Source: Pacificibacter marinus
GTDB lineage: Bacteria; Pseudomonadota; Alphaproteobacteria; Rhodobacterales; Rhodobacteraceae
NCBI RefSeq assembly: GCF_018860505.1
Contig: NZ_JAHKPU010000009.1
Location: 1 to 55,715 of the forward strand
Length of the DNA stretch: 55,715 nucleotides
Reading direction: 5' to 3'
Shown: positions 38,675 through 55,715 of the stretch, in pieces
How positions within the stretch are numbered: the stretch's first letter is position 1
How the letters are laid out: each line of letters begins with the position of its first letter
Notes under the pieces: generated by a model
Seen by the model: only the letters and a program-made list of their open reading frames with translations
Databases searched by the model: none
What the model was told of the DNA's origin: nothing
Translations under genes and position numbers: made by a program

Positions 38675-39820
38675 TTATCTGCAGGCATCAAAGCTGTCAG
38701 CCACGCCTTGAATCAGTTTTCCATAAAAATCAGAACCAAGATCGATGTCTCGACCCAAAGGATCGATCACACCACTATGTGCTGATGTGCCTTCCAAAAT
38801 CGTTTTCACAAGCCCCGCATTAAACTGTGGTTCCGCAAAGACGCAATCGACACCTTCATCTTTGATCATGTGCTGCAACTCTGAAATACGCGCAGGGCTT
38901 GGTGCCGCCCCATCGCTCAAAGAGATCGCACCCGCGGCGTTCAGGTCAAAACGTGATTCAAAGTAGTGATAGGCATCATGGAACACGACAAATTTGAGAT
39001 CGTGTTCATCTGCCAATTGCTCTTGCAGACGCTCAGTCAGTGCGGTCAGTTGAACAGCTCCTTCAGCGGCGTTTGCAGCATATGTCTGTGCATTTTCGGC
39101 ATCAAGATCACTTAGAGTTTTGGCGATAACATCCAACCATGCAATAGCGTTTTGTGGGTCGAGCCATGCGTGCGGGTCCAGTCCAGTGTGGTCATGACCT
39201 TCATGTCCTTCATCCGCCGCGTGATCGTCATGATCGTGATCGTCGTGATCCTCATCCGCCGCATGGTCCTCATGATCGTGGTCGTCGTGATCCTGATCCG
39301 CCGCGTGGTCGTCATGATCGTGGTCGTCGTGATCCTGATCCGTCGCGTGATCGTCATGATCGTGGTCATCATGATCTTCATCTGCCGCATGGTCGTCATG
39401 ATCGTGGTCATCATGGCTTTCATGCCCATCATGATCAGCATGATCAGCATGATCGTGCGCTTCGAAGGTCGCTCCTTGACGGAACTCAAGCTTGATGCTC
39501 GCCTCTTCCTCAATCAACGGCACAGACACCGCATTAGGGGCCAGCGTATCAATCGCGCCCCCCAACCAAGGCGTCAAAGCATTGCCAGACCAAAACACCA
39601 CACCAGCCTGCTGCAAGTTTCTCGCTTCAGAAGGGCGCATGGCATAGCTATGTGGTGATGCGCTCTGGTCCATTAAAAGGGTTGGCTCACCCAAATCACC
39701 CATCACTTGTGCAACCAAAGAGTGAATAGGCGCAATGTCGGTGGCAACGGTTGGCACCTGCGCCATCACGGGTGAGGTAGAAAGCATTAAGGCCGCGAAA
39801 GCGGAGATGTAGCGTGTCAT
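38675..39820 (-). CDS. znuA: Zinc ABC transporter periplasmic binding protein
   Basis: A 381-residue cluster A-I binding protein that captures Zn2+ for ZnuBC. The signal peptide ends near VMAQVP. Metal ligands are expected in DIAPIHSL, HAWLDPQNA and VFHDAYHYFESRF, plus EPQFNAG near the C-terminus. Between residues about 130 and 215 lies a His/Asp-rich loop built from five 14-residue repeats. The start at 39820 follows AGGATG; an ATG at 39829 is an alternative. It is divergent from zur across two predicted Zur operators. Confidence 0.95.
   Translation of the reverse strand: MTRYISAFAALMLSTSPVMAQVPTVATDIAPIHSLVAQVMGDLGEPTLLMDQSASPHSYAMRPSEARNLQQAGVVFWSGNALTPWLGGAIDTLAPNAVSVPLIEEEASIKLEFRQGATFEAHDHADHADHDGHESHDDHDHDDHAADEDHDDHDHDDHATDQDHDDHDHDDHAADQDHDDHDHEDHAADEDHDDHDHDDHAADEGHEGHDHTGLDPHAWLDPQNAIAWLDVIAKTLSDLDAENAQTYAANAAEGAVQLTALTERLQEQLADEHDLKFVVFHDAYHYFESRFDLNAAGAISLSDGAAPSPARISELQHMIKDEGVDCVFAEPQFNAGLVKTILEGTSAHSGVIDPLGRDIDLGSDFYGKLIQGVADSFDACR
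39210..39419. repeat. Five 42-bp tandem repeats within znuA
   Basis: Five contiguous 42-bp units (39210, 39252, 39294, 39336 and 39378) encode the 14-residue unit DHDDHDHDDHAADE with few changes (ATDQ, AADQ and one HED). The DNA copies differ at only a few positions each, which points to recent duplication or conversion. Confidence 0.9.
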
Positions 39821-39831
39821 GTTAATCATCC

Positions 39832-41998: not shown

Positions 41999-43072
41999 TT
42001 AAGTATCTGAGGCGATAGCCACAGTTTTCACGATTGCAAAACATGGGACGCCAACATCCAATGCCATCGCAGCAACTGACCGTCGCGTCACCCGTGCAAG
42101 CACAGCGCCTGCACGGGTCGACACCGTGACAATGGCGCTGGATGCACCGGTATGCTGGACCGCCTCGACCCTGCCCGCAACGATATTAAGTGCGGACAGC
42201 CCCGAGGGCCGCGTTGTCGCCAACATGACATCAGAGGCAGGCAATCGCACTCGCAGATTCGTGCCTATGTTCGCCGTCACATGCGGCAAGAAATACGAAT
42301 CGCCGCTCGCATCAAGTTCTGTCAAACCGTCTTGGTGATGCGCTCTGATTCGCACATTCAAAACCGCCCCGACTTGACCAACGCCCATGGGCATCGTGGT
42401 TGGATCGGCCAAAACATCGAGCGCGGGGCCTTTGCGAAGAACCTTGCCCGCTTCAAGCGCAACCACAGTGGTGGCCAAGCGCGCGACCTCATTGGCGGAA
42501 TGACTAACATAGATGATCGGAATACCGGTCTCGTCACGGATACGTTCAAAATAAGGCAGGATCTCGGCTTTGCGCGCAGCGTCCAAGGATGCCAAAGGCT
42601 CATCAGCAAGGATCAATTGCGGGTCGGCTAAAAGCGCCCGCCCGATGGCAACCCGTTGTTTTTCACCGCCCGATAATCCAAGCGGCCTGCGATCAAGCAG
42701 ATTGCCAATGCCCAACATTTCGATGACCCGCTCACGCTGCGCCTTGTCCATGCTACGTTTTGCAGCTCTCTCGCCATACTCCAGATTGCGTGCAACAGTG
42801 AGATGCGGAAAGAGGCGGCTATCTTGGAAAATATACCCCAATTTACGCTTGTAAGCGGGCATAAAAATGCCTGCACCACTGTCTTGCAGCACCTGCTCGT
42901 CGATGGAAATTTTGGCATTATCTGGCCGCATCAATCCAGCAACGGCATTGATGATCGTACTTTTGCCTGAGCCTGAGCGCCCATACAAAACAGTTAAGCC
43001 TTTAGGCGCTTCAAAGGACACGTCCAACGCGAAACCGTCAAAGCTGTGCTGTATCGAAATAGACAGACTCAT
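41999..43072 (-). CDS. modC: Molybdate ABC transporter ATP-binding protein
   Basis: A 357-residue ATPase with Walker A GRSGSGKST, signature LSGGEKQRV, Walker B LILADEPLASLD and a C-terminal TOBE/Mop domain (SALNIVAGRVEAVQHTGASS and on), which binds molybdate. The long open frame upstream (to 43360) overlaps modB and is ignored. The start at 43072 overlaps the modB stop. With modA and modB it takes up molybdate for the cofactor made by MoaB, MoaD and MoaE. Confidence 0.94.
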   Translation of the reverse strand: MSLSISIQHSFDGFALDVSFEAPKGLTVLYGRSGSGKSTIINAVAGLMRPDNAKISIDEQVLQDSGAGIFMPAYKRKLGYIFQDSRLFPHLTVARNLEYGERAAKRSMDKAQRERVIEMLGIGNLLDRRPLGLSGGEKQRVAIGRALLADPQLILADEPLASLDAARKAEILPYFERIRDETGIPIIYVSHSANEVARLATTVVALEAGKVLRKGPALDVLADPTTMPMGVGQVGAVLNVRIRAHHQDGLTELDASGDSYFLPHVTANIGTNLRVRLPASDVMLATTRPSGLSALNIVAGRVEAVQHTGASSAIVTVSTRAGAVLARVTRRSVAAMALDVGVPCFAIVKTVAIASDT

Positions 43073-43764
43073 ACGCCAGTCATCCGCTTCATAGTCCGAC
43101 GCGCCAGCACTTCTGATAAGAGCAAGGCCCCCATTGCCAAAACGACCGACACCAGAACAAGTCGCAGTGCCGCGTCTTCCTGACCCGGCACCTGTAATAA
43201 CGCGTAGATGGCCGAAGGCACCGTTTGCGTTTGCCCCGGAATCGCGGACACAAATGTAATCGTCGCGCCAAATTCGCCCAAGGATTTGGCAAACCCCAAC
43301 ACCGTCCCGGCCAGAATGCCGGGCACAGATAGGGGCAAGGTGATGGTCAAGAAAATCCACACAGGCGACGCCCCCAAAGTGGCCCCTGCCTGTTCCAATT
43401 TTGGATCAACAGCCTCCAACGACAATCGGATCGCCCGCACCATCAAAGGAAAGGCCATAATGGCCGCAGCCAGTGCGGCCCCTGTCCAGCGAAAGGCGAA
43501 AACAAGACCCCAATCTTGCAAAAAGGCCCCGACAGGCCCACGCGTGCCAAAGACCACGAGTAGCACATATCCCGTCACCACGGGCGGCAAGACCAAAGGC
43601 AAATGCACCAGCCCGTTCAAAAATTGTTTGCCGAAAAAATCCCAACGCGCCAATGCATAGGCGGCAGTTAGAGCCAAAGGCAGACTGAACAGAGTTGCCA
43701 CGAAAGACACTTTGATCGACAGCGCTATCGCTTGCCATTCTGCGGGCGAAAAGTCCAAAAGCAT
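43069..43764 (-). CDS. modB: Molybdate ABC transporter permease
   Basis: A 231-residue permease with about five membrane segments. The ABC permease loop (EAA motif) is EQAGATLGASPVWIFLTITLP, followed by GFAKSLGEFGATITFVS, which is characteristic of ModB. The start overlaps the modA stop (TGATG) and the stop overlaps modC. Confidence 0.95.
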   Translation of the reverse strand: MLLDFSPAEWQAIALSIKVSFVATLFSLPLALTAAYALARWDFFGKQFLNGLVHLPLVLPPVVTGYVLLVVFGTRGPVGAFLQDWGLVFAFRWTGAALAAAIMAFPLMVRAIRLSLEAVDPKLEQAGATLGASPVWIFLTITLPLSVPGILAGTVLGFAKSLGEFGATITFVSAIPGQTQTVPSAIYALLQVPGQEDAALRLVLVSVVLAMGALLLSEVLARRTMKRMTGV

Positions 43765-44537
43765 CAGTGGTCCACGTTCCCGAACCCATGCTCATCAAAA
43801 ATCGTGCGGGCCTCTGGTGACGCAAGATATGCAGCGAATTCAGAGGCTGCCGCTGTCGCGGGCGCAATCACAGCGGCGGGATAAACGATGGGAGCATGGC
43901 TGGCCTGAGGAAAGCGCGCAACGACAGACACGCGCGTCTCGCTTAACGCATCGGTTGCGTAGACAATCCCCAATGGAGCCTCCCCCCGCGCCACCAAAGC
44001 CAAGGCACTTCGCACATTATCTGTTTGTGCAACATGCGTCGATAGGCTGTCCCAAAGCCCCAAACTAACCAATGCCGACTTGCCGTAAATGCCCGCGGGC
44101 ACGGCCTCGACAAACCCCATCGCCATAGGGCCTGTTTCAAGTAGATCTGCAAAATCGATGTCATCGATGGACGTTTGGGGCATGTCAGCATCTTTAGGTG
44201 CGATCAGCACAAGTTGGTTGGTCAACAAGGCGACGCGACTATCTGCTTCTAGCAGACCTTCAATGGCAAGTTGATCCATCCATTCGGTGTTGGCACTGAT
44301 AAAGACATTGGCGGGTGCGCCCCGTTCGATTTGACGCGCAAGGGCGGACGAGCTTGCGAAAGACAGCAGTATCTTATGATCAGATACGTGTTCGAACTCT
44401 ACCGCAACATCATCCAAAGCCGATTTAAGACTGGCGGCTGCGAACACTGTCACAGTCTCAGCCTGCGCGGCCCCCAGCCCTACCACCAGAACACAGGCAG
44501 CGCCTTGGATCACAGAGCGGATGAAACGTTTGGGCAT
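43764..44537 (-). CDS. modA: Molybdate ABC transporter periplasmic binding protein
   Basis: A 257-residue binding protein with a signal peptide (MPKRFIRSVIQG ... GAAQA). The mature start TVTVFAAASLKSALDDVA is the classic ModA motif, and SFASSSALARQIERGAPANVFISAN supplies the oxyanion-binding serines. The start at 44537 has GAGGGA upstream and a proper signal sequence. Longer alternatives reach 44585. I did not find a convincing ModE site upstream. Confidence 0.94.
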   Translation of the reverse strand: MPKRFIRSVIQGAACVLVVGLGAAQAETVTVFAAASLKSALDDVAVEFEHVSDHKILLSFASSSALARQIERGAPANVFISANTEWMDQLAIEGLLEADSRVALLTNQLVLIAPKDADMPQTSIDDIDFADLLETGPMAMGFVEAVPAGIYGKSALVSLGLWDSLSTHVAQTDNVRSALALVARGEAPLGIVYATDALSETRVSVVARFPQASHAPIVYPAAVIAPATAAASEFAAYLASPEARTIFDEHGFGNVDH

Positions 44538-44822
44538 AGGGTCCCTCATCAAGTTGCGCGGCCTCATTGCCTTCCCATACATCACAAGCCAAAGAGCTGC
44601 AAAGCAAGGCCTATTTACAAATGGTCTAGATCAACGTCGCGAAAACACCTGAATTTAGGTTCGTGTTTTAAGACCCAAGATCGTCACGCCAACAAAATTT
44701 GAAGCTTTCGCCCTATGAATCGTCATGTCTGCGCAGTAACATTACGCCTATACCTATCATCAAGACGAACACTTCACTCTTTTACTTTTCCTGCTTTGCA
44801 GCTGCTGAGGACGCATTCGAAG

Positions 44823-45029
44823 ATGAAACAAGTGCCTAAAGAAACGACCGACGACGCCTTAATCCGTGAATTTTTGGAAAAAGGCGGCAACATCAGCAAG
44901 GGTAAAACCAAGCCTATGCCAAATGAACTGCGCATCAGCAACAACGCGTGGAACAACAAGCTGACCAAAGAGGAAAAAGCATCTTTGGCCGCGCCAACCG
45001 GACCGGTTCCTAAAAGCCCAAAAAAATAA
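44823..45029 (+). CDS. Small conserved basic protein
   Basis: A 68-residue, lysine-rich protein (MKQVPKETTDDALIREFLEK, then GGNISKGKTKPMPNELRISN and NNAWNNKLTKEE). The pattern is one I associate with a conserved Rhodobacterales family of unknown function. The start at 44823 is preferred because the preceding 36 residues in frame look non-coding; GAGGA lies about 10 nt upstream. It stands between the divergent mod operon and a bidirectional terminator. Confidence 0.7.
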   Translation: MKQVPKETTDDALIREFLEKGGNISKGKTKPMPNELRISNNAWNNKLTKEEKASLAAPTGPVPKSPKK

Positions 45030-45090
45030 AAGCACGACATCTCAGCGCGAGATTGAGTGCCAACCACATCCGCCAGATTTACGAATAGAA

Positions 45091-45119
45091 AAAGCCGAGC
45101 ATTTGACCGCTCGGCTTTT
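45091..45119. terminator. Bidirectional terminator between the small basic protein and the DEAD-box gene
   Basis: AAAGCCGAGC and GCTCGGCTTT form a perfect 10-bp stem with an 8-nt loop, flanked by A-rich and T-rich runs. It separates two convergent genes. Confidence 0.88.
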
Positions 45120-45143
45120 GAATTTTAGACCTTCGTGCGCATC

Positions 45144-47204
45144 TTAGCCTTTGCGTTTTGGGGCCGCAGCACCACCCTTAGGCTTGCCGTATTTCGCAGC
45201 AGGTTTACCGCCAGGCTTGCCGCCACCGCTGGGTTTACCAGCATAAGGCTTGCCGCCACCCGGTTTTCCACCGCCAGCAGGTTTCTTGCTGTACACACGT
45301 TTGGAAGGATCGCCTGCCCCAGCAGCAAATGATTTCTTCTCGTAAGGCTTTTTCGCTTTGTCGCTCACAGCGCCATCGCGAGTTGGGTCTTCGAACTTTT
45401 TCTTAAACGGCTTCTTCTCGTATGGTTTCTTATTGCCATCTGAGGATTTCGCATAAGGCTTCTTGTCGCCATACGGTTTCTTGTCACCGTATTCTTTTTT
45501 CTCATAAGGCTTTTTGTCGCCAAATGATTTCTTTTCATACGGCTTTTTATCACCGTAAGATTTCTTTTCGTAGGGCTTTTTCTCGTAAGGTTTTTTGCCG
45601 CCACCAGACCGATCACCACCCAAATCAGGCATGGTTGCCAGACGGGTCGCTTTCACATTTTCTTCCAAGATACCGTTATCGAGTGCAGCCTCGAAACCAT
45701 CTGCGGCAGCTTCTTTCAACTCAACAAAGCTCTGCGTGTCGCGAATACGGATCGCCCCGATAGAGGTTTTGTCGATGTTGCCAGCGCGACAAACCAACGG
45801 CAAAAGCCAACGCGGCTCTGCACGGTCATCACGACCAACAGACAGCGCGAACCAAACGGATTTTCCAAAATCTTCACGTGGGGCGCGCTCTGGTCGCTCG
45901 CCTGGTTTGGGTGCAGGACCAAGCTCCTCTGGCGCAGAGACACCAGCGCGGTACAAACGCAAGTACGCGGCAGCGATTTTCTCTGGCGAATGTGTTTCTA
46001 ACATTTTGGCCGCAAATACAGCTTCTTTTTCAGACGGTTCAGCCATCAAGGCCTCGTCTGTCAAAAGCTTCTCTTCATCTTTCGCCAAAATCATCTCGGC
46101 GCTTGGCGCCTCAACCCATTCCGCCTGCAATTTGGCCCAACCAAGCAAACGTGTGGCCTTGCTTTTCATTTTAGGTGGAACAATCAGCGCAGAAATCCCT
46201 TTGCGCCCAGCGCGGCCGGTACGGCCAGAACGGTGCAACAAAGTTTCCGCATTGGTTGGCAACTCAGCATGGATAACCAATTCCAAGTTCGGCAAATCGA
46301 TCCCGCGTGCAGCAACGTCAGTCGCCACACAGACACGAGCGCGACCATCACGCATGGCTTGCAAAGCGTGGCTACGCTCAGATTGGCTCAATTCACCAGA
46401 CAGGCAGACAACCGAGAAACCACGATTGGCAAAACGGGCTGTCAGACGCGCCACAGACGCCCGCGTATTGGCAAACACGATGGCGTTTTCCGCATCGTGG
46501 TAGCGCAACATATTGATAATTGCGTTTTCTTCGTCCCGTGGAGACACGGACAACGCTTGGTAAGAAATATCAGCATGCTGCTTCGCGCCACCTGTGGTGT
46601 TCACACGCACAGCATCACGTTGGTATTGTTTCGCAAGCTTGGCGATCATAGCAGGCACAGTGGCCGAGAACATCAACGTACGACGGTCTTCAGGCGCTTC
46701 GCCCAGCATGAATTCCAAATCTTCGCGGAAGCCAAGATCCAGCATTTCATCGGCTTCATCAAGAATAATCGCGCGCAAGCCCGACATATCCAAAGAGCCA
46801 CGTTGAATGTGATCGCGCAAACGACCTGGTGTGCCGACAACGATATGCGCGCCACGCTCAAGGGTGCGGCGTTCATCACGATAATCCATCCCACCCACAC
46901 AAGAGGCCAATTTCGCACCCGCTTTGGCGTAGAGCCATTCAAGCTCGCGTTTGACTTGAAAGGCCAATTCGCGCGTTGGCGCGATGACCAAAGCCATCGG
47001 CGCTTCGGCGCGATCAAAGCGTTCTGCTTCACCCAAAAGAGTGTGGGCAATCGCCAAACCGAACCCGACAGTTTTACCGGACCCTGTTTGCGCAGAGACC
47101 AAAAGATCCGCGTCTTGCAACGCAGGATCGTTCACTGCCTCTTGAACTGGCGTGAGGGTGTCATAGCCGCGCTCGGCAAGGGCGTCGGAAAGGGCTGTAA
47201 TCAT
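45144..47204 (-). CDS. DEAD-box RNA helicase with long basic repeat tail
   Basis: A 686-residue helicase. The core has TPVQ, AQTGSGKT (38-45), PTRELA, TPGRLRD, LDEADEML, FSAT and HRSGRTGRAG. A DbpA-like RNA-binding domain follows (VGRDDRAEPRWLLPLVCRAG, IGAIRIRDTQSFVELK). The last about 150 residues are low-complexity: repeated KKPYEKK, KSFGDKKPYEKK and YGDKKPY units, then a Gly/Lys/Pro-rich end. Such tails bind RNA without sequence preference in cold-shock helicases such as DeaD. The start at 47204 lacks a strong ribosome site; the frame is open to 47306. Confidence 0.92.
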   Translation of the reverse strand: MITALSDALAERGYDTLTPVQEAVNDPALQDADLLVSAQTGSGKTVGFGLAIAHTLLGEAERFDRAEAPMALVIAPTRELAFQVKRELEWLYAKAGAKLASCVGGMDYRDERRTLERGAHIVVGTPGRLRDHIQRGSLDMSGLRAIILDEADEMLDLGFREDLEFMLGEAPEDRRTLMFSATVPAMIAKLAKQYQRDAVRVNTTGGAKQHADISYQALSVSPRDEENAIINMLRYHDAENAIVFANTRASVARLTARFANRGFSVVCLSGELSQSERSHALQAMRDGRARVCVATDVAARGIDLPNLELVIHAELPTNAETLLHRSGRTGRAGRKGISALIVPPKMKSKATRLLGWAKLQAEWVEAPSAEMILAKDEEKLLTDEALMAEPSEKEAVFAAKMLETHSPEKIAAAYLRLYRAGVSAPEELGPAPKPGERPERAPREDFGKSVWFALSVGRDDRAEPRWLLPLVCRAGNIDKTSIGAIRIRDTQSFVELKEAAADGFEAALDNGILEENVKATRLATMPDLGGDRSGGGKKPYEKKPYEKKSYGDKKPYEKKSFGDKKPYEKKEYGDKKPYGDKKPYAKSSDGNKKPYEKKPFKKKFEDPTRDGAVSDKAKKPYEKKSFAAGAGDPSKRVYSKKPAGGGKPGGGKPYAGKPSGGGKPGGKPAAKYGKPKGGAAAPKRKG
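45190..45600. repeat. Low-complexity coding repeats in the helicase tail
   Basis: The DNA here is a run of related units, about 15-30 bp each, encoding KKPYEKK and GDKKPY blocks (the densest part is 45410-45600), followed by Gly/Lys/Pro-rich units toward the stop codon. The repeats are imperfect and their number could vary between strains. Confidence 0.75.
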
Positions 47205-47692
47205 GGGAGATGCGTGTCCGTATTGGGCAATCGCCGCGTACGCGGAAAGACCGGAGGTAAGAAAGATGCCCTGATAAGGCAAGAATACGTGTTTGTATAG
47301 GGGCAAAGCATGTCATCGGCTTAACATCGCTATACGGTTATGTGTGGATGGAATACTCGGTTCTAGACCAAACAAAGGACTTCGCTTCTTAAAATAGTGT
47401 TGACAACTTTGACCGCGCCGCCCTGCCCCGATTTCAAATCTGCGCATCCACCCGTAGATGTCCTGCTTGAGGCAGTCGATGCAGCAGGCAAGCCCTGCAA
47501 AATCGCTTGAATTGCAATGAAAACTCTCTTGAAGCGAAATCGCGTCAGAAAATGAACTGGCTGCAAGGTCATTCATCTGCACTTGCGGCGCCTCAGAATA
47601 AATAGAACTTATTCTGAAAGTTAGAATAATGAATTTGATTTATAAAGCAATTTCAACGCTAATACATTTGAACAACGAAAAGGATCGCTCCG
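47205..47692. promoter_or_regulatory. Long intergenic region between the helicase and monooxygenase genes
   Basis: About 490 nt between two divergent genes. I find no convincing gene. A short minus-strand frame at 47313-47582 has no motif or ribosome site. The right end is AT-rich and carries a perfect inverted repeat that is listed separately. A long leader for the helicase, whose cold-shock relatives have one, is possible. Confidence 0.5.
47593..47617. promoter_or_regulatory. Perfect 9-bp inverted repeat, probable LysR operator
   Basis: TCAGAATAA and TTATTCTGA are exact reverse complements around a 7-nt spacer, with a third half-site-like TTAGAATAA at 47621-47629. It lies about 75 nt upstream of the monooxygenase start. 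The size and T/A-flanked dyad fit a LysR-type binding site. Confidence 0.65.
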
Positions 47693-48901
47693 ATGACAAC
47701 AGCACTTGACGTAAAAACACCAGAAACCTCAAGCGCACCACTGCCGGAGACGGATTCTTCAAAACTAACGGAAACTACAGAGTTCAAACATCTCTTAAAA
47801 ACCATTGCCGAACGTCGCGGCGAAATAGAACAAAAACGACACGTCCCCAAAGACATCATCGGACTGATGAAAAAGGCACGAATTTTTCGATCAGCCACAC
47901 CAACACGCTTTGGCGGCGATGCGATTGCCCCGCATCATTTTTTGAAAATGGTCGACAAAATTGGCACTGTTGATGGATCTGCAGCTTGGGTTTCTGCGTT
48001 TGGCTCAGCCAACACATATACAGCCGCCCTACCCGTCGAAGCGCAAGAAATCATGTATGCGAACGGACCTGATCAAGTGTTCGCGGGTGGATTGCACCCT
48101 GTGCAAAAGGCCACACGCGTAGACGGTGGTTGGTCTGTCTCAGGTCGTTGGAAGTTTGCGTCCGGCTGCATGGGCGCCGATTGGATTGGCGTCGGCATAG
48201 AAGGCAGCCCTCAGGGTAATGAGCCGAATGCCCCGCCCACCGTGATGATGGCCGTAGCACCAGCGGATGAAGTAGAGATCATAGAATGCTGGGACGTTTC
48301 AGGCATGCAAGGCACAGGCAGTCATGACACCACAGTCACCGACAAATTCTATTCTGACACATGGATCTGTGAACGCGGTGCCCCTGGGCTCTTTGACGAG
48401 CCTCTGTACCGGTATCCTGCGATGGCGTACCAAGCGCAAGTTCACGCTGCCTGCAACCTCGGTCTGGCCCGTGCGGCAATCGAACATGCAAAATCCGTAT
48501 CGGGCGCTGCAAAACTTATGGCAGGACATGCCCGTCTTTGTGACCGCGGGTATTTTTTGACAGGAATAGCAGAGGCAGAAGCAGCCTTGCGTGGTGCACG
48601 GGCATTTTTCTACGAAGCTGCGGAAGAGGCTTGGGATTATCTGCTACAAGGAGACCCTGTCCCGCTTGAACACATCAATTTATTGCGCTTGAGCGCTTCA
48701 AACGCGGCCAAATCCGGCGCTCAAATTGTACAGAAATGCTACACGATTTCGGGTATGGGTGTGATCGCAAAAGGGAACCCAATGCAGCGTTATCTGCGCG
48801 ATGCAATGGTTGTGACCCAACATGCGGCAGTGACTGATATGACGATTGAAAATGCAGGGCGGGTACTGGCAGGCCTAGATGCACCTCGTGGATATCCTTA
48901 A
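47693..48901 (+). CDS. Two-component flavin-dependent monooxygenase, oxygenase subunit (acyl-CoA dehydrogenase fold)
   Basis: A 402-residue protein of the class D flavin monooxygenase group (HsaA/C2-hydroxylase-like, Acyl-CoA_dh_2). It uses reduced flavin supplied by a separate reductase to hydroxylate, usually, an aromatic substrate. KKARIFRSATPTRFGGD is the N-terminal block. The middle has VSGRWKFASGCMGADWIGVG, then WDVSGMQGTGSHDTTV. The C-terminus has GMGVIAKGNPMQRYLRDAMVVTQHA, where the His is typical of the group. AAGGATC precedes the start. The flavin reductase is two genes downstream. Substrate unknown. Confidence 0.82.
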   Translation: MTTALDVKTPETSSAPLPETDSSKLTETTEFKHLLKTIAERRGEIEQKRHVPKDIIGLMKKARIFRSATPTRFGGDAIAPHHFLKMVDKIGTVDGSAAWVSAFGSANTYTAALPVEAQEIMYANGPDQVFAGGLHPVQKATRVDGGWSVSGRWKFASGCMGADWIGVGIEGSPQGNEPNAPPTVMMAVAPADEVEIIECWDVSGMQGTGSHDTTVTDKFYSDTWICERGAPGLFDEPLYRYPAMAYQAQVHAACNLGLARAAIEHAKSVSGAAKLMAGHARLCDRGYFLTGIAEAEAALRGARAFFYEAAEEAWDYLLQGDPVPLEHINLLRLSASNAAKSGAQIVQKCYTISGMGVIAKGNPMQRYLRDAMVVTQHAAVTDMTIENAGRVLAGLDAPRGYP

Positions 48902-48949
48902 AGCGCAGCTTAAACACTTTCCACTTTCCTTACGGGTTGGACAACCTTC

Positions 48950-49888
48950 ATGAGAAACTTCAACTCTAGCCATTTCGACCTGAACCTCATCAAGGTTTTT
49001 CTTGCGATTTGGGAGATGCAAAGCCTTACAGATGTAGCAGAGCGCCTTGGCCTGACACAGCCCGCGGTCAGTCATTCGTTGCGTAGATTGCGGGATCAGT
49101 TTTCCGACCCCCTTTTTCAACGTGTTGGAAATCAGATGTTGCCAACAGCAACCGCGACACGACTACATGGCCCGTTTGAGGCAGCACTGTCGCTGCTGGA
49201 ACAAACGGTACAGGACACTCACAGTTTCGTACCCGAAACCACTACACGCCGTTTTCGTATCGCGATGACGGACACGGGTGAGTTTTTCTCTATGCCGCGC
49301 ATTCTAGCTGCCTTGGAAAAAGCCGCCCCCGAAGCGAGCATCACATCCGTTCGCATTGATCCATCTGAGATCGCAAGCGCATTGCGCAGTGGCCATGTGG
49401 ATCTGGCCATAGGTTATCTACCGAAACTAGACACAGCACAGTGCCAAGGGGATCTGTTGCTCAAAGATTACTTGGTATGCCTGATGCGCGACAACCATCC
49501 CGCACTGACGCAAGAGTGGTCGGAAGAGAGTTTCGCGCGTTTATCATTTGTCGATGTCAGCCGTGCGGCCACTGGATACCAAATGGCACAAGACAGTTTT
49601 AAGCAGCGCGGCCTGCGTATAAACGCAAAAGCCCGCCTTGATCATTTTACGGTCGTTCCAGAAGTCGTACGGCAAACAGACTTTGTCGCAATTTTTCCGC
49701 ATTCCATCTTTATTCGCCTTGAGGGGCGCGGAGGATTTTTTGCCCGCGACCTTCCGTTCGAGTTGCCATCCTATGACATCAAACTTTGGGTGCATTCCAG
49801 CTTTGCTGAAGACCCAGCATTACTTTGGCTTCGCACACTTATTCAGACGGCCCTCAAATCACCGGAGATCATTTCACATGACCATTAG
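48950..49888 (+). CDS. LysR-type transcriptional regulator
   Basis: A 312-residue regulator. The N-terminal winged helix-turn-helix (about 7-66) reads DLNLIKVFLAIWEMQSLTDV, then AERLGLTQPAVSHSLRRLRD. A C-terminal substrate-binding effector domain follows. It lies between the monooxygenase and its reductase and is transcribed with them; its stop overlaps the reductase start by 11 nt. It is the likely activator of this unit through the inverted repeat at 47593-47617. Confidence 0.92.
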   Translation: MRNFNSSHFDLNLIKVFLAIWEMQSLTDVAERLGLTQPAVSHSLRRLRDQFSDPLFQRVGNQMLPTATATRLHGPFEAALSLLEQTVQDTHSFVPETTTRRFRIAMTDTGEFFSMPRILAALEKAAPEASITSVRIDPSEIASALRSGHVDLAIGYLPKLDTAQCQGDLLLKDYLVCLMRDNHPALTQEWSEESFARLSFVDVSRAATGYQMAQDSFKQRGLRINAKARLDHFTVVPEVVRQTDFVAIFPHSIFIRLEGRGGFFARDLPFELPSYDIKLWVHSSFAEDPALLWLRTLIQTALKSPEIISHDH

Positions 49889-50369
49889 CACCGATCTATT
49901 TCGCCAAACCATGTCCCTTTTTCCAGGGGCTGTGACACTTGTCACAGTGGGGCAAGGCGATGGTCGACGCGGCATAACGGCCACGGCTGTGTGCTCTGTT
50001 ACCGACACGCCACCAAGCCTTTTGGTTTGCGTCAACCGCACAACGGACACCTGCTCAGAGATTACTCGACTGAAAAGCTTTAGTGTGCAGCTTCTTGATC
50101 ATACTTCCGACGATATCGCCCTCGCTTTTGCAGGTGTCGCAGGACTACAGGGCGCTCAAAAGTTTTCCGTTGGGGCATGGGAAGAAACCGATCGTGGTTT
50201 GCCGCAACTGACCACCGCCGTTGCCTCAGTGTGTTGTGAGGTGAGTTCTTACAACGACGTCGGAAGTCACAGAGTATTCATCGGTGAAATTATAGACTCT
50301 GCCCTCGAAGTTGGTGATGCTTTGATTTATGCGCGCGCCCAGTTTGGACGCGCACAAGCAACACTTTAA
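49878..50369 (+). CDS. Flavin reductase family protein
   Basis: A 163-residue FMN-binding split-barrel reductase (HpaC-like). LFRQTMSLFPGAVTLVTVGQ, GITATAVCSVTDTPPSLLVC and the GSHRVFIGEI segment, where GDH is usual, are the family blocks. It supplies reduced flavin to the monooxygenase. The start at 49878 is inside the end of the LysR gene, with GGAG about 10 nt upstream. The frame extends far upstream but that overlaps the LysR gene. Confidence 0.88.
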   Translation: MTISTDLFRQTMSLFPGAVTLVTVGQGDGRRGITATAVCSVTDTPPSLLVCVNRTTDTCSEITRLKSFSVQLLDHTSDDIALAFAGVAGLQGAQKFSVGAWEETDRGLPQLTTAVASVCCEVSSYNDVGSHRVFIGEIIDSALEVGDALIYARAQFGRAQATL

Positions 50370-50402
50370 AAGACGGCATCAAAATGGTTGCAGCGGCACA
50401 GC

Positions 50403-51158
50403 CTAGTCCAAAGCCGCTGCGGCCGCATCACTGGCTAGCGTGAGAAACACTGCGTCCGAACCTTCGATCACAAAAGACAAACGCGCAAGCCAACGCTTAC
50501 TGGCACAGCGATCAGCGGTAAAAATGCCAACAGGCACGTCCGCCGCTTGCGCAGCAGACACCAAACGCTCGATCAAAACGTCAACAGTATCATCACTGGC
50601 ATGAGCTGCAGCATCCACGCCAAGATCACCGGGGCCAATAAAAACCAGATCAATCCCTGCAACAGCTAGAATTTCTTCGACATTCTCAACCGCCTGAAGC
50701 GTCTCAAGTTGAATTGCCACAAAAGTTTCCTTGCGCGCGCGTTCAATCGATCCAGATATGTTGCGCAGGTAGGATGCGGCGCGTCCAGGCCCTGCGCCGC
50801 GTGCACCATGCGGAGCAAATCGAGCAGCTTTCACAACGGCTTTTGCCTCTGCAGCGGATGAGATATGCGGTACAAGAACACCGCAAGCACCAGCATCAAG
50901 AGCAGCCGAAATATTTTGCGGCAAATTGCTGCGCACGCGCACGATTGCTGGGATGCGAGCCACGTCCGCCGCCCGCAACATATCCGTCAACAGCCCGTCT
51001 GAAATTGGACTATGCTCCGTATCGATGCAGATAAAATCGGGCTTTGCACCTGCCACGATTTCGACAGACACAGGTGTCGGAATGGCGACAAAAGGCCCAC
51101 GTAAAGGAACGCGTTTTGTAACGGCATCACGCAAATCGTAAAGCTGCGCTAAACTCAT
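50403..51158 (-). CDS. HpcH/HpaI family aldolase
   Basis: A 251-residue class II aldolase of the 2-oxo-3-hydroxy acid type. CIDTEHSP, RVRSN, GVLVPHISSAAEAKAVVKAA, RGAGPGRA, the metal ligand Glu in IQLETLQAVENVE and Asp in IGPGDLG are all present. Such enzymes split 4-hydroxy-2-oxoacids to pyruvate and an aldehyde, or act on malyl/citramalyl-like substrates. Its start overlaps the V4R-protein stop (ATGA). It converges on the flavin reductase gene. Confidence 0.88.
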   Translation of the reverse strand: MSLAQLYDLRDAVTKRVPLRGPFVAIPTPVSVEIVAGAKPDFICIDTEHSPISDGLLTDMLRAADVARIPAIVRVRSNLPQNISAALDAGACGVLVPHISSAAEAKAVVKAARFAPHGARGAGPGRAASYLRNISGSIERARKETFVAIQLETLQAVENVEEILAVAGIDLVFIGPGDLGVDAAAHASDDTVDVLIERLVSAAQAADVPVGIFTADRCASKRWLARLSFVIEGSDAVFLTLASDAAAAALD

Positions 51159-51661
51159 TCTTTCGTGCCCTTTGCAATCCGTGCTTCAAACCGACACACA
51201 TCAGCGCCCATTGCTGCACATGTTGTTTCAGTGACGCATGTTGGTGCGCCAAAAATCATCCCTGATACTGCTGTCAACATTCCGACAATAAGGGCACAGA
51301 CAGGCACATCCGAGGCCCCATACCCTGCCGCAAAGGGAGAATTTCGAACCGTCACATCGAGGCTATCTTCTGTTAAAACCGTATCCCAATCGCCCCAACC
51401 CAATTGGCCTGACGTTTCACGGATCACACCAAGCAGTGCTTCTGAGGCCCCCGCTCCTGCGTCTTTATAGCTTTGCGCCGATTTCCCACCATTTGTGAAC
51501 ACCGAACGGATCATCGCCTCGAACACCGCTGGGCGTTGCTCTGGCGCCATCTCTAGAACGATCCCCATGACCGCCTCTGGTTTGATGAAAATATAACGCA
51601 TATCGCCATCGAAATAGGTGCCAGCCGTGGCATCATAAGAAAGTCTGTCGCGAAAACTCAT
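51155..51661 (-). CDS. Stand-alone V4R (4-vinyl reductase) domain protein
   Basis: A 168-residue protein. The N-terminal part (RLSYDATAGTYFDGDMRYIF) leads into an all-round V4R-like domain, with the end signature CVTETTCAAMGADVCRFEA, whose cysteines are typical of V4R proteins and may bind zinc. V4R domains bind small ligands in regulators such as XylR/PoxR and act in bacteriochlorophyll synthesis. Here it stands alone, upstream of and coupled to an aldolase, with the TRAP genes further upstream. The start at 51661 follows AAAGGAC. Function unknown. Confidence 0.75.
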   Translation of the reverse strand: MSFRDRLSYDATAGTYFDGDMRYIFIKPEAVMGIVLEMAPEQRPAVFEAMIRSVFTNGGKSAQSYKDAGAGASEALLGVIRETSGQLGWGDWDTVLTEDSLDVTVRNSPFAAGYGASDVPVCALIVGMLTAVSGMIFGAPTCVTETTCAAMGADVCRFEARIAKGTKE

Positions 51662-51694
51662 TGGTTTGTCCTTTTTGTACATGGGGCAGCTTGC

Positions 51695-53008
51695 TTACAT
51701 CAGCGAAGGAATAAAGGTCGCTAAAGATGGCACTAAGATCACCAAACCGATTAGCAAAAACACACATAGAATATAGGGCAAGGCCGCTTTCGCCACTTCT
51801 GGCAATGTCGTTCCGGGAGGACTGACGCCATGCATCACAAACAACAGCAATCCAAAAGGTGGCGTTGTAAAGGAAACTTCAAGCATCAAAAGCATGATCA
51901 GTCCCCACCAAATCATGTCGAAATCCAAAGACAGCGCAAGCGGGACAAAAAGAGGCAGCGTGATGAGCATCATCGACACCTGATCCATAAACATTCCAAG
52001 AACGAGCAGGATCAACGCCATCACCAAGAGTGTCTGAGTTGGTCCCATTTCGAGCGCCGTAGCCCAGCGAACTAAGCCAGATGAAGCACCTGAGAACGCC
52101 AAAAGCTGTGCGAAAGTCGACGACGCAGTGATCAAAAGGAACGTCATTCCCGTCACACGGGCCGCATCAGCAATCGCGGTCCTAACGGCTTTGAAATCGA
52201 GAGCTTTGAACAGCAATGCAAGAGCGGCCACAGCAACAATTCCAAGAGCACCACTTTCAGTGGGTGTCGCAAAACCAGTTAAGATTGATCCCACAACCGC
52301 CATCATAATCACGACCATCGGCAAAATATCTCGGCAAAAAATACCAACGCGCTTGGACAAAGGCACAGGTTCAAAATCGTAAGACGGCGCAGCATCGGGA
52401 TCAATTTTGACCTGAACGAAAATTAAGATTGAATAGAAAATTGCGAGAACGAGCCCCGGAAGTAAGCCAGCCACAAGAAGACCGCCAATATCAATCCCCG
52501 CCAAGGACCCAAAGAGCACGGCCAATGTTGATGGCGGAATGATCACAGCCAAGCCACCCGACCCAAGAATGGGGCCTATGGCCATATGCTTTTTGTACCC
52601 GCGCTTCATCATCTCGGGCACCATTAACGTGCCGAGCATCCCTGTATTGGCAAGCGATGATCCAGACAAAGCAGCAAACACAGTCCCTGACGTGATCGTC
52701 AGATAGGACAATCGCGCAGGCAAGCGGCCAATCAGGACGTCAATCGCATCCAAAACACGGCGTGCAAGACCTGAGTGAAAGAACAACGATCCCATAACAA
52801 GAAAGAGTGGGACGGGCGCCAAGGCATAGGTCGAGACCGCCATCGTCCCATTTGAGAGCATCTGGTCGATACCACGCGCCCCCCCCATGAATAAAAATAC
52901 GCCGACCACGTTGATCAAAAAGAAGCCAAGCGCCACAGGCAATCCGATGCCCATTGAAAAGATGAGGCCACCGATGAGGATCGCAATCGAAATGCTCCAG
53001 TCCATCAT
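51695..53008 (-). CDS. TRAP transporter large permease (DctM type)
   Basis: A 437-residue membrane protein with about twelve hydrophobic segments. PLFLVMGSLFFHSGLARRV, SGSSLANTGMLGTLMVPEM, GYKKHMAIGPILGSGGLAVIIPPS and the FATPTESGALGIVAVAAL segment are typical of DctM. It couples Na+ entry to solute uptake. The start at 53008 follows AAGGA. It lies 11 nt after dctQ and is followed by the V4R gene 33 nt on, so these are probably one transcript. Confidence 0.93.
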   Translation of the reverse strand: MMDWSISIAILIGGLIFSMGIGLPVALGFFLINVVGVFLFMGGARGIDQMLSNGTMAVSTYALAPVPLFLVMGSLFFHSGLARRVLDAIDVLIGRLPARLSYLTITSGTVFAALSGSSLANTGMLGTLMVPEMMKRGYKKHMAIGPILGSGGLAVIIPPSTLAVLFGSLAGIDIGGLLVAGLLPGLVLAIFYSILIFVQVKIDPDAAPSYDFEPVPLSKRVGIFCRDILPMVVIMMAVVGSILTGFATPTESGALGIVAVAALALLFKALDFKAVRTAIADAARVTGMTFLLITASSTFAQLLAFSGASSGLVRWATALEMGPTQTLLVMALILLVLGMFMDQVSMMLITLPLFVPLALSLDFDMIWWGLIMLLMLEVSFTTPPFGLLLFVMHGVSPPGTTLPEVAKAALPYILCVFLLIGLVILVPSLATFIPSLM

Positions 53009-53019
53009 ATCAAAATTCC

Positions 53020-53532
53020 TTACATTCCTGCGTGCGCTTCGGGAGCAGCACCAAAGAAGCTTTCGCCGCGCGCAATAAAGGACAGGAACTGAGCGCCCCC
53101 AAATCCGAAACCAAGCGGCATTGAGGCATAGAGCGCCCACATCGGAGCATCAAAACTGCGCACCTCGTAGGTGCCTTCGATGATCGACGTGACGAAGCTC
53201 TTTCCTGAATACCATGCGAGGTAGAAGCAAATCAGAGCTGAGATGATATGCAGCATGAACTCCCAAGCTTTGCGAACGTTGTTTGGAAGGTAGGTCAAGA
53301 CCACTTCGACACTGACATGCCCTCGTGTCATCACAAGATAGGGAAGGCACAAAAACGTCACATAAAGCATCGAGTATTCGACGGAATTAACCGCCCATAC
53401 AAACATCGGAAGGCCAAAGTTTCGGGACAACACATCATATGTGACAATCAAAACAATCGCGACAATGAAAAGGCATGCGAGACGAAACAACAGGTTCGAC
53501 ACCGCATCGAGGCATCTGAACATCAAAGACAT
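53020..53532 (-). CDS. TRAP transporter small permease (DctQ type)
   Basis: A 170-residue protein with four membrane segments. The YDVLSRNFGLPMFVWAVNSVEY motif and LPYLVMTRGHVSVEVV are characteristic of DctQ. AAAGGAC precedes the ATG. It follows the binding-protein gene after a 91-nt gap that contains a hairpin, and it precedes the large permease. Confidence 0.9.
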   Translation of the reverse strand: MSLMFRCLDAVSNLLFRLACLFIVAIVLIVTYDVLSRNFGLPMFVWAVNSVEYSMLYVTFLCLPYLVMTRGHVSVEVVLTYLPNNVRKAWEFMLHIISALICFYLAWYSGKSFVTSIIEGTYEVRSFDAPMWALYASMPLGFGFGGAQFLSFIARGESFFGAAPEAHAGM

Positions 53533-53586
53533 GACAGTGTCCTTTCAAGTGGGAATTTATCGGCGAACAATACGAGCATTCAAAAT

Positions 53587-53612
53587 GGCGGGATCAATCA
53601 TCAGACCCCGCC
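53587..53612 (-). terminator. Hairpin between TRAP binding-protein and permease genes
   Basis: GGCGGGATC and GACCCCGCC can form a 9-bp stem with one G-U wobble around an 8-nt loop, and ATTTTG follows on the minus strand. It lies 11 nt past the dctP stop. Partial termination or 3' protection here would give more binding protein than permease. Confidence 0.6.
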
Positions 53613-53623
53613 AAGAGACGATT

Positions 53624-54616
53624 TTAGAAGTCTGTAAAGAAGACCGCCTTGAGTTCATCATGCATTGTCGGGTCACGATCTTTCAGGCGCTGCCAAGAAA
53701 TATCATATGCTTTTTCAAGAAAGATTTGACGCTGCTCACCGGTCAACTCGATATTCTCGATGCCTCCCTCCAAAAGAATTTGGCTCTCGGATTCGTTCAG
53801 CGCAATACTCGCCTCATAGGAAGATATTTCGTGATCGATCGCGGCTTGATTGACAATTTCCTTTGCTTCGTCAGACAAACCATCCCAGCTATCCAAGTTC
53901 ATAGACACCAGAACGTCTGTCTGAAAGAAGCCTGGATTCACACGGTATTTCAGAAACTTATCCCAGCCGAAATCACGAAGCCCCGTAACTGGAAAAGCGG
54001 TTCCATCAACGACCCCACGCTCTAAAGATGTGTACACCTCGCTTGCACTTTGAACGACATTCGTCGCGCCAAGCTCTTCTAGAAATGATCTAAATAAGGG
54101 CGACGAACGCATACGAATGCCATCTAAATGTAGCTGACCATTCTCATCTGCACCCGGTTTTTCAGTCGTCCACAAAAAGAAGTTTGCACCACCGTCAACA
54201 TGCGCCAGCACATGGGCATTGCCTTTTTCGTGGAAAGGCTTGTTGACCAATTCCATACCGCCAGCGGCCCTAAGCGTCATTGGATCAAGATTGGATCCAG
54301 CAAAGGCTTCGCCCTCTGGAACGAGATTTAGATACAGACCTGCGGGCAGCAGGAACATATCAGCGATACCGTTCTTTTGCGCCTCGCCCATCCGCTCTGC
54401 AGGGATAGTTTCGGGTCCTCCAATGACCTGAATTTGAACAACACCTTCGCCGCGCTCATTCACAAGATCAACAAAGCCTTGAAAGTTGCGCGCAAACGAT
54501 ACCTGCGCAGGCACAAATGTCACAGCACGGATTATGTCTTCGGCTTGAGCGGCCATAGATGACAATCCGAAAGCCGCTGCAGCGGCAAAGCCTTTGAGTG
54601 TTAAAAGTTTTGTCAT
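53624..54616 (-). CDS. TRAP transporter solute-binding protein (DctP type)
   Basis: A 330-residue periplasmic protein with a signal peptide (ending near MAAQAED). The family blocks are RNFQGFVDLVNERGEG, GPETIPAERMGEAQKNGIAD, and RMRSSPLFRSFLEELGATNV, whose Arg pins the carboxylate of the ligand, then ASEVYTSLERGVVDG. This predicts an organic acid ligand. The identity is unknown. It follows the GntR gene by 70 nt on the same strand. Confidence 0.92.
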   Translation of the reverse strand: MTKLLTLKGFAAAAAFGLSSMAAQAEDIIRAVTFVPAQVSFARNFQGFVDLVNERGEGVVQIQVIGGPETIPAERMGEAQKNGIADMFLLPAGLYLNLVPEGEAFAGSNLDPMTLRAAGGMELVNKPFHEKGNAHVLAHVDGGANFFLWTTEKPGADENGQLHLDGIRMRSSPLFRSFLEELGATNVVQSASEVYTSLERGVVDGTAFPVTGLRDFGWDKFLKYRVNPGFFQTDVLVSMNLDSWDGLSDEAKEIVNQAAIDHEISSYEASIALNESESQILLEGGIENIELTGEQRQIFLEKAYDISWQRLKDRDPTMHDELKAVFFTDF

Positions 54617-54686
54617 GTTTTCCTCATTGTTGGTTAAGAAACCCCACCGTTTAGTCGGTTTTTATGGGTCTATTTTTTGTTAAACG

Positions 54687-55361
54687 TTATTTTCGACGTC
54701 GATTTTGGACCGCCGGCATTTCAGACGAAACAGCTTCAAAAATCACAAGAGCCGCATCAACAAACTGTGTCATTGATTTTTGCGCAGCATCCCTGTCGCG
54801 CGCCCAGTAGCTTTCAGCCAATTTGCCCGCACCAATGCGCGCCGTGTCACGACCATTTGATAGCTTCAGCGTTGCAGCGCGGACCAAATGGACCTGCATA
54901 TGAAACCGAGACAGTGTTTCTTGCAGACGACGGTTTTGAATTCGGGACATCCAGAAATTGCGAAAGGCAATATTTGAATGCGCGGCATCTTTGGGTGTCT
55001 GTGCGGCTTGAACATCTGCAAGAAGTAACCGCAACTCCGCATCATCATCGTCGGTGGCGAATTCAATCAGGCTTGAAAACGCCAAAGGCTCCAGCGCGCG
55101 ACGGATCGCAAAAATTTCCCGTATATCTTCGACCGTAGGCGTTATGATGACATGCCCATACGGCTGCACGCTTTCAATCAAACCATCGTTTTCGAGCCGT
55201 CCAAGCGCTTCGCGCACAGGCGTTCTGGAAACATCCCTTTCACGCGCAATGGTCGCTTCCACCAAGCGGTCGCCAGCCTGAAGGCGGTCTGCCGAAAGAT
55301 CCGACAGCAAATCATCATAAACACGCTGAACAAGGGACTGCGTCATACTTTTCTGAGACAT
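54687..55361 (-). CDS. GntR-family regulator with FCD domain
   Basis: A 224-residue FadR/VanR-type repressor. The winged helix has SLVQRVYDDLLSDLSADRLQ, GDRLVEATIARERDVSRTPV and REALGRLENDGLIE. The effector-binding FCD domain follows. The His residues that bind metal in most FCD domains appear to be replaced (NIAFRNFW for xxxFHxxL, AESYW for EHxxI, TQFVDAA at the final His). The start at 55361 is preferred over a GTG at 55370. It probably controls the TRAP/V4R/aldolase genes downstream. Confidence 0.88.
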   Translation of the reverse strand: MSQKSMTQSLVQRVYDDLLSDLSADRLQAGDRLVEATIARERDVSRTPVREALGRLENDGLIESVQPYGHVIITPTVEDIREIFAIRRALEPLAFSSLIEFATDDDDAELRLLLADVQAAQTPKDAAHSNIAFRNFWMSRIQNRRLQETLSRFHMQVHLVRAATLKLSNGRDTARIGAGKLAESYWARDRDAAQKSMTQFVDAALVIFEAVSSEMPAVQNRRRK

Positions 55362-55715
55362 TGGCGTCACACCTCTTTACGACTTCTTACGGTATACCTT
55401 TAAGTTTAAAATATTTATTGCAAGGGAAATTGATGAAAAGCACTCAAATACACTATTAGTGATCATAAAATGTGCAAAAATGGATGAATTTACTGAAATT
55501 AGACCGCTTAAAGTGACGACAACTATTTTATGCAAAAAGCGATTCTGTCCTAAAAGTAGGATTTTCGATTCAGATTGTGGGAACTGAAGAGGTCCAGCGA
55601 AACTGGACAGCGCGCGAAGCTGCATTCAACACAAACGAATAGATACGAGACTGGCAGAACGACGGCCCCCTCAGGCCGCCTCAAAGCCACAGTAGTGGTC
55701 TTGCCACGGTTTAGT
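55362..55715. other. Region upstream of the GntR gene to the window edge
   Basis: About 350 nt with no firm gene. 55400-55560 is very AT-rich. GGTATACC at 55391-55398 is listed separately. The last 75 nt are GC-richer. On the minus strand they could be the end of a reading frame (TKPWQDHYCGFEAA, then stop at 55671), but too little is visible to call a gene. Confidence 0.3.
55391..55398. promoter_or_regulatory. Probable GntR operator (GGTATACC palindrome)
   Basis: A perfect 8-bp palindrome 30 nt upstream of the GntR gene. GGTATACC-centred dyads are typical of operators of FCD-type GntR repressors, so autoregulation is likely. Confidence 0.5.

Follow-up and report, generated by a model that had tools for sequence, protein, structure and literature searches.

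Our analysis of the window, by which we mean the whole 55,715-base stretch that forms contig C12 of a Pacificibacter marinus genome, tentatively suggests that a nine-gene module at positions 47693-55370 breaks down indole acids. The module joins an IacA-family flavin monooxygenase and a flavin reductase to a TRAP transporter, a free-standing V4R protein, an HpcH/HpaI aldolase and two regulators. We propose that the aldolase releases pyruvate and isatin from an oxidized indole acid, a reading to which we give close to an even chance. It is very likely that the nine genes serve one peripheral catabolic pathway, and the module probably feeds a cluster of genes built around isatin hydrolase. Because the module appears to be tied to this isatin cluster, an indole acid becomes a likely substrate and the missing ring-cleavage dioxygenase, for which there was no candidate among the open reading frames (ORFs) of 43000-55715, is no longer puzzling.

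Two converging units are conserved together

Each of the nine genes is an intact ORF and matches its family significantly. The plus-strand unit encodes, in order, the oxygenase, a LysR regulator and the flavin reductase, while the minus-strand unit encodes a GntR regulator, DctP, DctQ, DctM, the V4R protein and the aldolase. The units converge, with 33 bases between the stop codons of the flavin reductase and the aldolase. The V4R and aldolase genes overlap by 4 bases, and the DctQ-DctM and DctM-V4R gaps measure 11 and 12 bases; because of such tight spacing and overlaps, each unit is likely an operon. A preliminary description of this DNA had named the same two facing units and gene families, which hold up, and had suggested either two neighboring modules or a single short route in which an organic acid is taken up, oxygenated and cleaved at a C-C bond to pyruvate or a similar product. 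The single-pathway idea was to fail if homologous monooxygenase and TRAP units were usually found apart.

We found the opposite for close homologues of the oxygenase. In each of the five genomes where a close oxygenase (about 75% identity or more) was found, the TRAP/V4R/aldolase unit is present too, which supports a single pathway, and chance neighborhood was rejected as the main explanation because both units are kept in these 5/5 genomes. The facing layout is retained in four of them. In the fifth (G239, Paracoccaceae bacterium La 6), the oxygenase and LysR genes lie about 15 kb from a GntR-DctPQM-V4R-FAD oxidase-aldolase unit on one plasmid, pLA6_001, which is the genome's second contig. 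The family samples, of 198 or 394 genomes, drew roughly one genome from each genus, and an oxygenase of at least 77% identity occurred in 3 of 394: the window's genome, G013 and G239. An order-wide search at E 1e-100 recovered 1 of 176 genomes, the window itself.

Scanning public species genomes for the V4R protein yielded two loci, both with the whole arrangement: L004 (P. marinus F2R14) and L005 (Celeribacter persicus), the latter with one extra gene. Protein identities to the window are 93-100% for L004, 56-89% for L005 and 80-95% for L006, the G013 locus, where the arrangement is unchanged; LysR is kept in all three and in L030. Genes at unannotated loci were called with a simple script, and the names given there to aminotransferase, tryptophan dioxygenase, kynureninase, IacE/F/I, ABC and similar genes were assigned by eye unless family-searched.

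The converse does not hold: the TRAP/aldolase unit also appears without a close oxygenase in G358, G263 and G234 (with V4R in G263 alone) and in partial form in G325 and G162. In a phylum sample, the V4R protein occurred in 4 of 398 genomes, the window's included. Two genomes of another family, G585 and G582, carry GntR, a luciferase-type (LLM) flavin monooxygenase, flavin reductase, aldolase and V4R genes, with by-eye tryptophan dioxygenase and kynureninase genes nearby.

In some relatives the module adjoins isatin hydrolase clusters

The genome that contains the window encodes an isatin hydrolase (G000:C3:5294-6085) that is 68% identical to the solved structure 4j0n, retains the HxxxHxD motif and keeps three of four named pocket residues, the fourth Phe being replaced by Trp. 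Around it are indolepyruvate-oxidoreductase-like alpha and beta genes, two CrtI-like oxidoreductases and an ABC transporter. The isatin cluster also has a fused monooxygenase/reductase, which we infer to act on 2-aminobenzoyl-CoA; its copy in L004 scores 1207.9 with the salicylyl-CoA 5-hydroxylase model, above the cutoff of 1078. Isatin hydrolase is covered in PMC6117287, and its role in indole degradation is left open in PMC6221969 (both sources, like the others cited here, in excerpt).

In three relatives the module adjoins an isatin cluster. The genome of L004 has both on one 60,444-base contig. In C. persicus, the oxygenase is followed by a short-chain dehydrogenase/reductase (SDR), an FAH hydrolase, a cupin and a cyclase-family gene, which proved to be an isatin hydrolase (4j0n, E 7.4e-130) 5.3 kb from the aldolase. 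On pLA6_001, the gene listed immediately after the aldolase is that for isatin hydrolase, with 386 bases separating them. The two also share a contig in G585 and G582, where isatin hydrolase lies 22 kb from the LLM-flavin reductase-aldolase-V4R set. Distant DctP relatives on plasmids (39-42% identity, n = 4) lie within 16 kb of an isatin hydrolase in both of the two cases examined.

We then counted isatin hydrolase (E 1e-100) across the family sample, where it occurs in 66 of 394 genomes. Eight genomes in the sample carry the module or its core, seven with a DctP of at least 47% identity plus G162, which was found through its V4R protein; G394, G395, G585 and G582 stand outside both this set and the sample count. 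Isatin hydrolase is present in seven of the eight (hypergeometric P 1.9e-5, with genomes treated as independent and the module set picked after the neighborhoods had been seen). Half of the set is incomplete in the DNA fetched: G358 and G234 lack V4R, G325 is a 3.3-kb contig with TRAP and FAD oxidase genes, and G162 is a 7.3-kb contig without TRAP genes. The preliminary description had missed both the apparent isatin tie and the FAD-linked oxidase of the relatives, and to that extent its account was incomplete.

The C. persicus FAH hydrolase scores 427.9 bits against a cutoff of 500 for the 2,4-didehydro-3-deoxy-L-rhamnonate hydrolase model. A sugar-acid pathway built on it and the SDR was not adopted, as both genes also appear in isatin clusters where no module was seen (L060, L099); the hydrolase is an unexplained companion, like the SDR.

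Other genes were observed around these clusters. A styrene/indole monooxygenase-like gene with SDR and AraC genes stands beside the isatin cluster in the window's genome (L071:4508-7704, G000:C3) and in L004 (1126-4812); the L004 copy scores 225.8 bits against the StyA cutoff of 550 and is possibly a second feeder, for indole itself. A second TRAP operon, with a DctP that by eye resembles the branch of the solved protein 4mnc, adjoins the cluster in the window's genome (L071:7805-10635, G000:C3). Plasmids of Paracoccus saliphilus (L097) and Pukyongiella (L098) carry 4mnc-like TRAP genes in the vicinity of thiolase and SDR genes and of isatin hydrolase homologues, L097 also with Rieske and ligase genes, a possible iad-like set. 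An isatin hydrolase homologue of 86% identity (L079, G356:C13:30309-31097) carries one in-frame TGA.

The oxygenase belongs to the IacA family

The oxygenase (47693..48901, plus strand; 402 aa; PF08028, E 1.1e-22) is a group D flavin monooxygenase of the IacA (indole-3-acetate monooxygenase) family, as judged by sequence comparison, and we propose that it oxygenates the indole ring. The family sample contains four homologues of 38-41% identity, in G042, G261, G039 and G239, and all are part of iac-like clusters that include amidase, IacB-like, Rieske and flavin reductase genes. Plasmid records matching the oxygenase numbered 38, of which 12 were fetched; one was pLA6_001, already counted as G239, leaving 11 loci with homologues of 45-59% identity. 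An iac Rieske gene is nearby in seven (L084, L089-L094), aldolase and FAD oxidase genes stand beside the oxygenase homologue in two (Caballeronia SBC2, L086, and SBC1, L096), and neither is present in the remaining two (L087, L095). The two Caballeronia oxygenases are identical, and the transporter beside them is of the ABC type, not TRAP.

In a 20-row tree, the window's oxygenase is nested among iac-cluster oxygenases, next to the copy from a Rhizobium rhizoryzae plasmid, with a support of 100/100 for the group that joins them (the tree is midpoint-rooted, with no HsaA or other outgroup). The Rhizobium oxygenase is 58.7% identical and is followed directly by a V4R gene inside an iac-like cluster (L084:5008-6778). 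The tree needs at least two context changes for the aldolase label, most simply read as the IacA-type oxygenase and aldolase pairing having arisen twice, in Roseobacteraceae and in Caballeronia. Excerpts of PMC7225977 describe IacA as acting on 3-substituted indoles, oxidizing indole-3-lactic acid, and report C2 oxidation of 3-substituted indoles by a related IacA.

The best NCBIfam models for the oxygenase are HsaA (NF045629; 158.5 against a cutoff of 450) and 4-hydroxyphenylacetate hydroxylase (122 against 650), and both functions were rejected on these scores, which are far under the cutoffs. Placing IifC in the same class as the oxygenase proved wrong, since PMC7225977, in the excerpt used, assigns IifC to group E. 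A structure model of the oxygenase had a mean predicted local distance difference test (pLDDT) score of 35 and was unusable. Neither IacB and IacC (Rieske; both by tblastn) nor StyA had a match in the window.

The flavin reductase (49878..50369, plus strand; PF01613, E 1.5e-29) is HpaC/RutF-like, scores 111.6 bits against the TIGR02296 cutoff of 205.95, and would supply reduced flavin to the oxygenase. Between the two genes, 48 bases past the oxygenase, lies the LysR regulator (48950..49888, plus strand; PF00126/PF03466).

The aldolase, transporter and V4R protein

The aldolase (50403..51158, minus strand; PF03328, E 1.3e-27) would perform the retro-aldol step. Its His, Arg, Glu and Asp motifs align with those of HpaI 4b5s, and together with PF03328 they place it in the class II HpcH/HpaI pyruvate aldolase superfamily; we take these residues to be the catalytic His and Arg and the metal-binding Glu/Asp. 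The equivalog model TIGR02311, for the 4-hydroxy-2-oxoheptanedioate aldolase HpaI, gives 132.9 against a cutoff of 368.8. Because this score is so far below the cutoff, the aldolase probably has a different substrate from HpaI.

An FAD-linked oxidase stands beside the aldolase in L005, G239, G263, G358 and G234; in L005, L031, L034 and L035 its gene separates the aldolase from V4R or DctM. Among the solved proteins most closely related to it are D-2-hydroxyglutarate and D-lactate dehydrogenases as well as a glycolate oxidase, which suggests that it converts a 2-hydroxy acid into a 2-oxo acid just before the aldolase.

The TRAP transporter is complete, with DctP (53624..54616; PF03480), DctQ (53020..53532; PF04290) and DctM (51695..53008; PF06808) all present on the minus strand. 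DctM scores 269.4 against the TIGR00786 cutoff of 268.45, a score taken on the longer ORF with a GTG start that overlaps DctQ in the ORF list; the start given here is the ATG at 53008 read from the sequence. The best solved relative of DctP is 4mnc/4mni (E 1.1e-46, the next best being 2.4e-10), and the proposed uptake substrate fits this branch.

The V4R protein (51155..51682, minus strand; PF02830, E 2.1e-15) scores 57 bits against a gathering threshold of 31 and is a probable aromatic-ligand binder. Its Cys129, Glu152, Cys155 and Cys163, presumably a metal-binding set, are invariant in seven homologues. The family search matched the V4R domain alone, with no DNA-binding or ATPase domain, and a weak structure model (pLDDT 59) matches the phenol-sensor domains of DmpR, MopR and PoxR. 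PMC2253512 (excerpt) presents V4R domains as presumed binders of hydrophobic ligands that signal in cis or in trans.

The GntR/FCD regulator (54687..55370, minus strand; PF00392/PF07729) heads the TRAP/aldolase operon. Upstream of it, at 55391-55398, a short palindrome, GGTATACC, is also present in L004 and L006, has one base changed in L005 and is a possible GntR operator; the sequence stops at 55715, with nothing readable past GntR. An inverted repeat upstream of the window's oxygenase is incompletely kept in the other loci compared. Adjoining the oxygenase unit on the opposite strand is a by-eye DEAD-box helicase with a repetitive KPYEKK-type tail (45144-47306), and farther away the window encodes a by-eye ZnuA-like protein with a long, repeated Asp-His-rich insert (DHDDHDHDDH...; 38675-39829).

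A proposed pathway from indole acids to isatin

To the observed parts, linkage, family membership, conserved motifs and co-occurrence, we add a substrate, a set of reactions and a role for V4R, all of which we infer. An aryl 2-oxo or 2-hydroxy acid would enter through the TRAP transporter, and indole-3-pyruvate is the most likely one; relatives that have the FAD-linked 2-hydroxyacid-type oxidase may import indole-3-lactate and oxidize it to indole-3-pyruvate. The IacA-type monooxygenase, with the flavin reductase, would then oxidize the indole ring at C2. The compound that results from this and from hydroxylation at C3, 3-hydroxy-2-oxindole-3-pyruvate, could be completed by an SDR whose gene lies next to the oxygenase in Celeribacter and within the isatin cluster in the window's genome. 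We propose this compound as the aldolase substrate because it is a 4-hydroxy-2-oxo acid, the class that HpaI aldolases cleave; the products would be pyruvate and isatin.

Isatin hydrolase would open isatin to isatinate, from which the indolepyruvate-oxidoreductase-like enzyme may make an aryl-CoA, and the fused flavin monooxygenase/reductase could open the lower pathway. The V4R protein may be a small aromatic-binding accessory, perhaps a trans-acting sensor, and GntR and LysR would bring two signals into one pathway. The scheme uses all conserved genes except V4R and explains the gene set with no need for a ring-cleavage dioxygenase or hydratase. These exact chemical steps we put forward tentatively, at a little under an even chance.

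Weighing the proposed pathway

Several observations weigh against this pathway. The isatin cluster and the module are on different contigs in the window's draft genome, as are module and isatin hydrolase in G263, G358 and G162; in G234 the closest isatin hydrolase copy is likewise on another contig, with a 51% paralogue near the module. Most isatin hydrolase carriers (59 of 66) fall outside the set of eight module genomes, and in G260, which belongs to the window's genus, the isatin cluster is present while a close oxygenase and DctP are absent. Conversely, G013 has the module and yielded no isatin hydrolase (E 1e-15), indolepyruvate oxidoreductase (E 1e-60) or aryl-CoA monooxygenase (E 1e-100). 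Its dctM is split by a frameshift (L006:11691-13004), in the lone module genome without isatin genes, as if the module were decaying without an outlet, or by a sequencing error.

The gene set itself also varies. No flavin reductase match was found in the roughly 70 kb fetched of pLA6_001, and no V4R match in the stretches fetched from G358 and G234. G263, G234 and G162 have the unrelated LLM-type flavin monooxygenase beside the unit and no close IacA-type oxygenase; because of these three genomes, the link between the module and IacA chemistry is not a strict one. G579 has a V4R gene without a nearby aldolase match and without isatin hydrolase, and a Novosphingobium P6W plasmid (L085:10565-13607) has FAD oxidase, V4R and LLM genes among glycoside hydrolases and TonB receptors, a neighborhood that is not obviously indole-related. 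The FAD oxidase gene is missing at the window copy, L004 and L006, and its best homologue in the window's genome is 39% identical; because there is no FAD oxidase beside it, the window copy unaided fits only a 2-oxo acid. Finally, the 4mnc ligand is presumably benzoylformate, and a literature search showed no relevant paper on the ligand of 4mnc/4mni among the matches listed.

The two units could instead be separate modules, with the oxygenase unit oxidizing indole-3-acetate like IacA and the TRAP/V4R/aldolase unit importing and splitting a non-aromatic 2,4-dihydroxy or 4-hydroxy-2-oxo acid. Their regulators are separate, iac genes stand at 7 of 11 plasmid loci of oxygenase relatives, and TRAP-FAD oxidase-aldolase sets are found without the oxygenase in G358 and next to monooxygenases of another kind in G263 and G234. 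However, every close-oxygenase genome (5/5) also has the TRAP/V4R/aldolase unit, Caballeronia joins the oxygenase with an aldolase and FAD oxidase under a different transporter, the two or more context changes in the tree are most simply two separate gains, and the window offers no match to IacB, IacC or StyA; we consider this arrangement unlikely. A kynurenine-derived acid, such as 4-(2-aminophenyl)-2,4-dioxobutanoate or its 2-hydroxy form, split by the aldolase into pyruvate and an aminophenyl product, is quite unlikely. It would account for the LLM-aldolase-V4R sets of G585 and G582, which lie among by-eye tryptophan dioxygenase, kynureninase and CoA ligase genes with an aminotransferase nearby, and for the aminotransferase beside the G162 set. 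Yet G585 and G582 have the LLM enzyme beside the aldolase in place of an IacA-type oxygenase, and characterized IacA acts on 3-substituted indoles (PMC7225977, excerpt). The isatin hydrolase linkage, moreover, points to an indole ring entering the pathway.

The benzoylformate binding that we assume for the nearest solved DctP, and the HsaA and 4-hydroxyphenylacetate hydroxylase models that score best for the oxygenase, would suit a non-indole aromatic 2-oxo or 2-hydroxy acid of the mandelate or hydroxyphenyl-lactate type; the oxygenase would then be a phenol hydroxylase, as those two enzymes are. Those scores are far under their cutoffs, however, while oxygenase homologues up to 59% identical sit in iac-like clusters and the ORFs of 43000-55715 include no ring-cleavage dioxygenase, so that such a substrate seems improbable. 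It is highly improbable that the module supports no growth and serves to convert or detoxify an indole signal, the V4R protein being a stand-alone sensor that tunes the pathway. The weak V4R model does match phenol-sensor domains, and the hydrophobic-ligand binding and cis or trans signaling presumed for V4R domains (PMC2253512, excerpt) also count in its favor, but dedicated uptake and a pyruvate-releasing aldolase would suit catabolism better.

Comparison with known routes of indole degradation

Auxin-family indole catabolism in a new form is the most likely function of the module, and the proposed indole-acid pathway would be a third route next to iac and iad. That it follows a distinct third logic, with TRAP uptake of indole-3-pyruvate or indole-3-lactate, IacA-type oxidation, an aldolase split to isatin and assistance by V4R, is a possibility we hold with some reserve, short of an even chance. 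If true, it would reveal a way for marine bacteria to remove auxin precursors (tryptophan-derived indole acids), give an orphan V4R protein a concrete setting, and provide both a new aldolase reaction, a retro-aldol cleavage to isatin, and a gene marker for the route. In searches of open-licence PubMed Central, the matches listed showed no described aldolase route through isatin.

Two aerobic indole-3-acetate routes are outlined in the excerpted text of PMC9613470: iac, leading to catechol, and iad, leading via isatin to anthranilic acid; the early iad steps are revised in PMC12633357 (excerpt). According to excerpts of PMC7225977, neither indole-3-lactic nor indole-3-pyruvic acid supported growth of the indole-3-acetate degrader Pseudomonas putida 1290.

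The module has an IacA-family group D oxygenase, along with a flavin reductase, in common with the iac cluster (IacA, IacE, IacCD, IacG); the window's oxygenase is nested among iac-like oxygenases, and a V4R gene follows the oxygenase in one iac-like cluster. Unlike that cluster, the window has no IacB or Rieske match and no amidase among the ORFs of 43000-55715. The module instead encodes V4R and a pyruvate aldolase, joined in relatives by a 2-hydroxyacid-type oxidase, and in several genomes it is linked to isatin rather than catechol genes. With the iad route it would have the intermediate isatin in common, together with the outlet from isatin to anthranilate (PMC9613470, excerpt), but the module's proposed substrate has a three-carbon side chain, its isatin would come from a pyruvate aldolase, and its first oxygenase is IacA-type. 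The aldolase shares its fold and catalytic motifs with HpaI/GarL aldolases while scoring far under the HpaI equivalog cutoff, and the V4R protein has the PF02830 domain and Cys/Glu/Cys/Cys set of other free-standing V4R proteins but is attached to an aldolase operon. The module combines the iac oxygenase family with what is probably the iad outlet, and as a set it matches neither.

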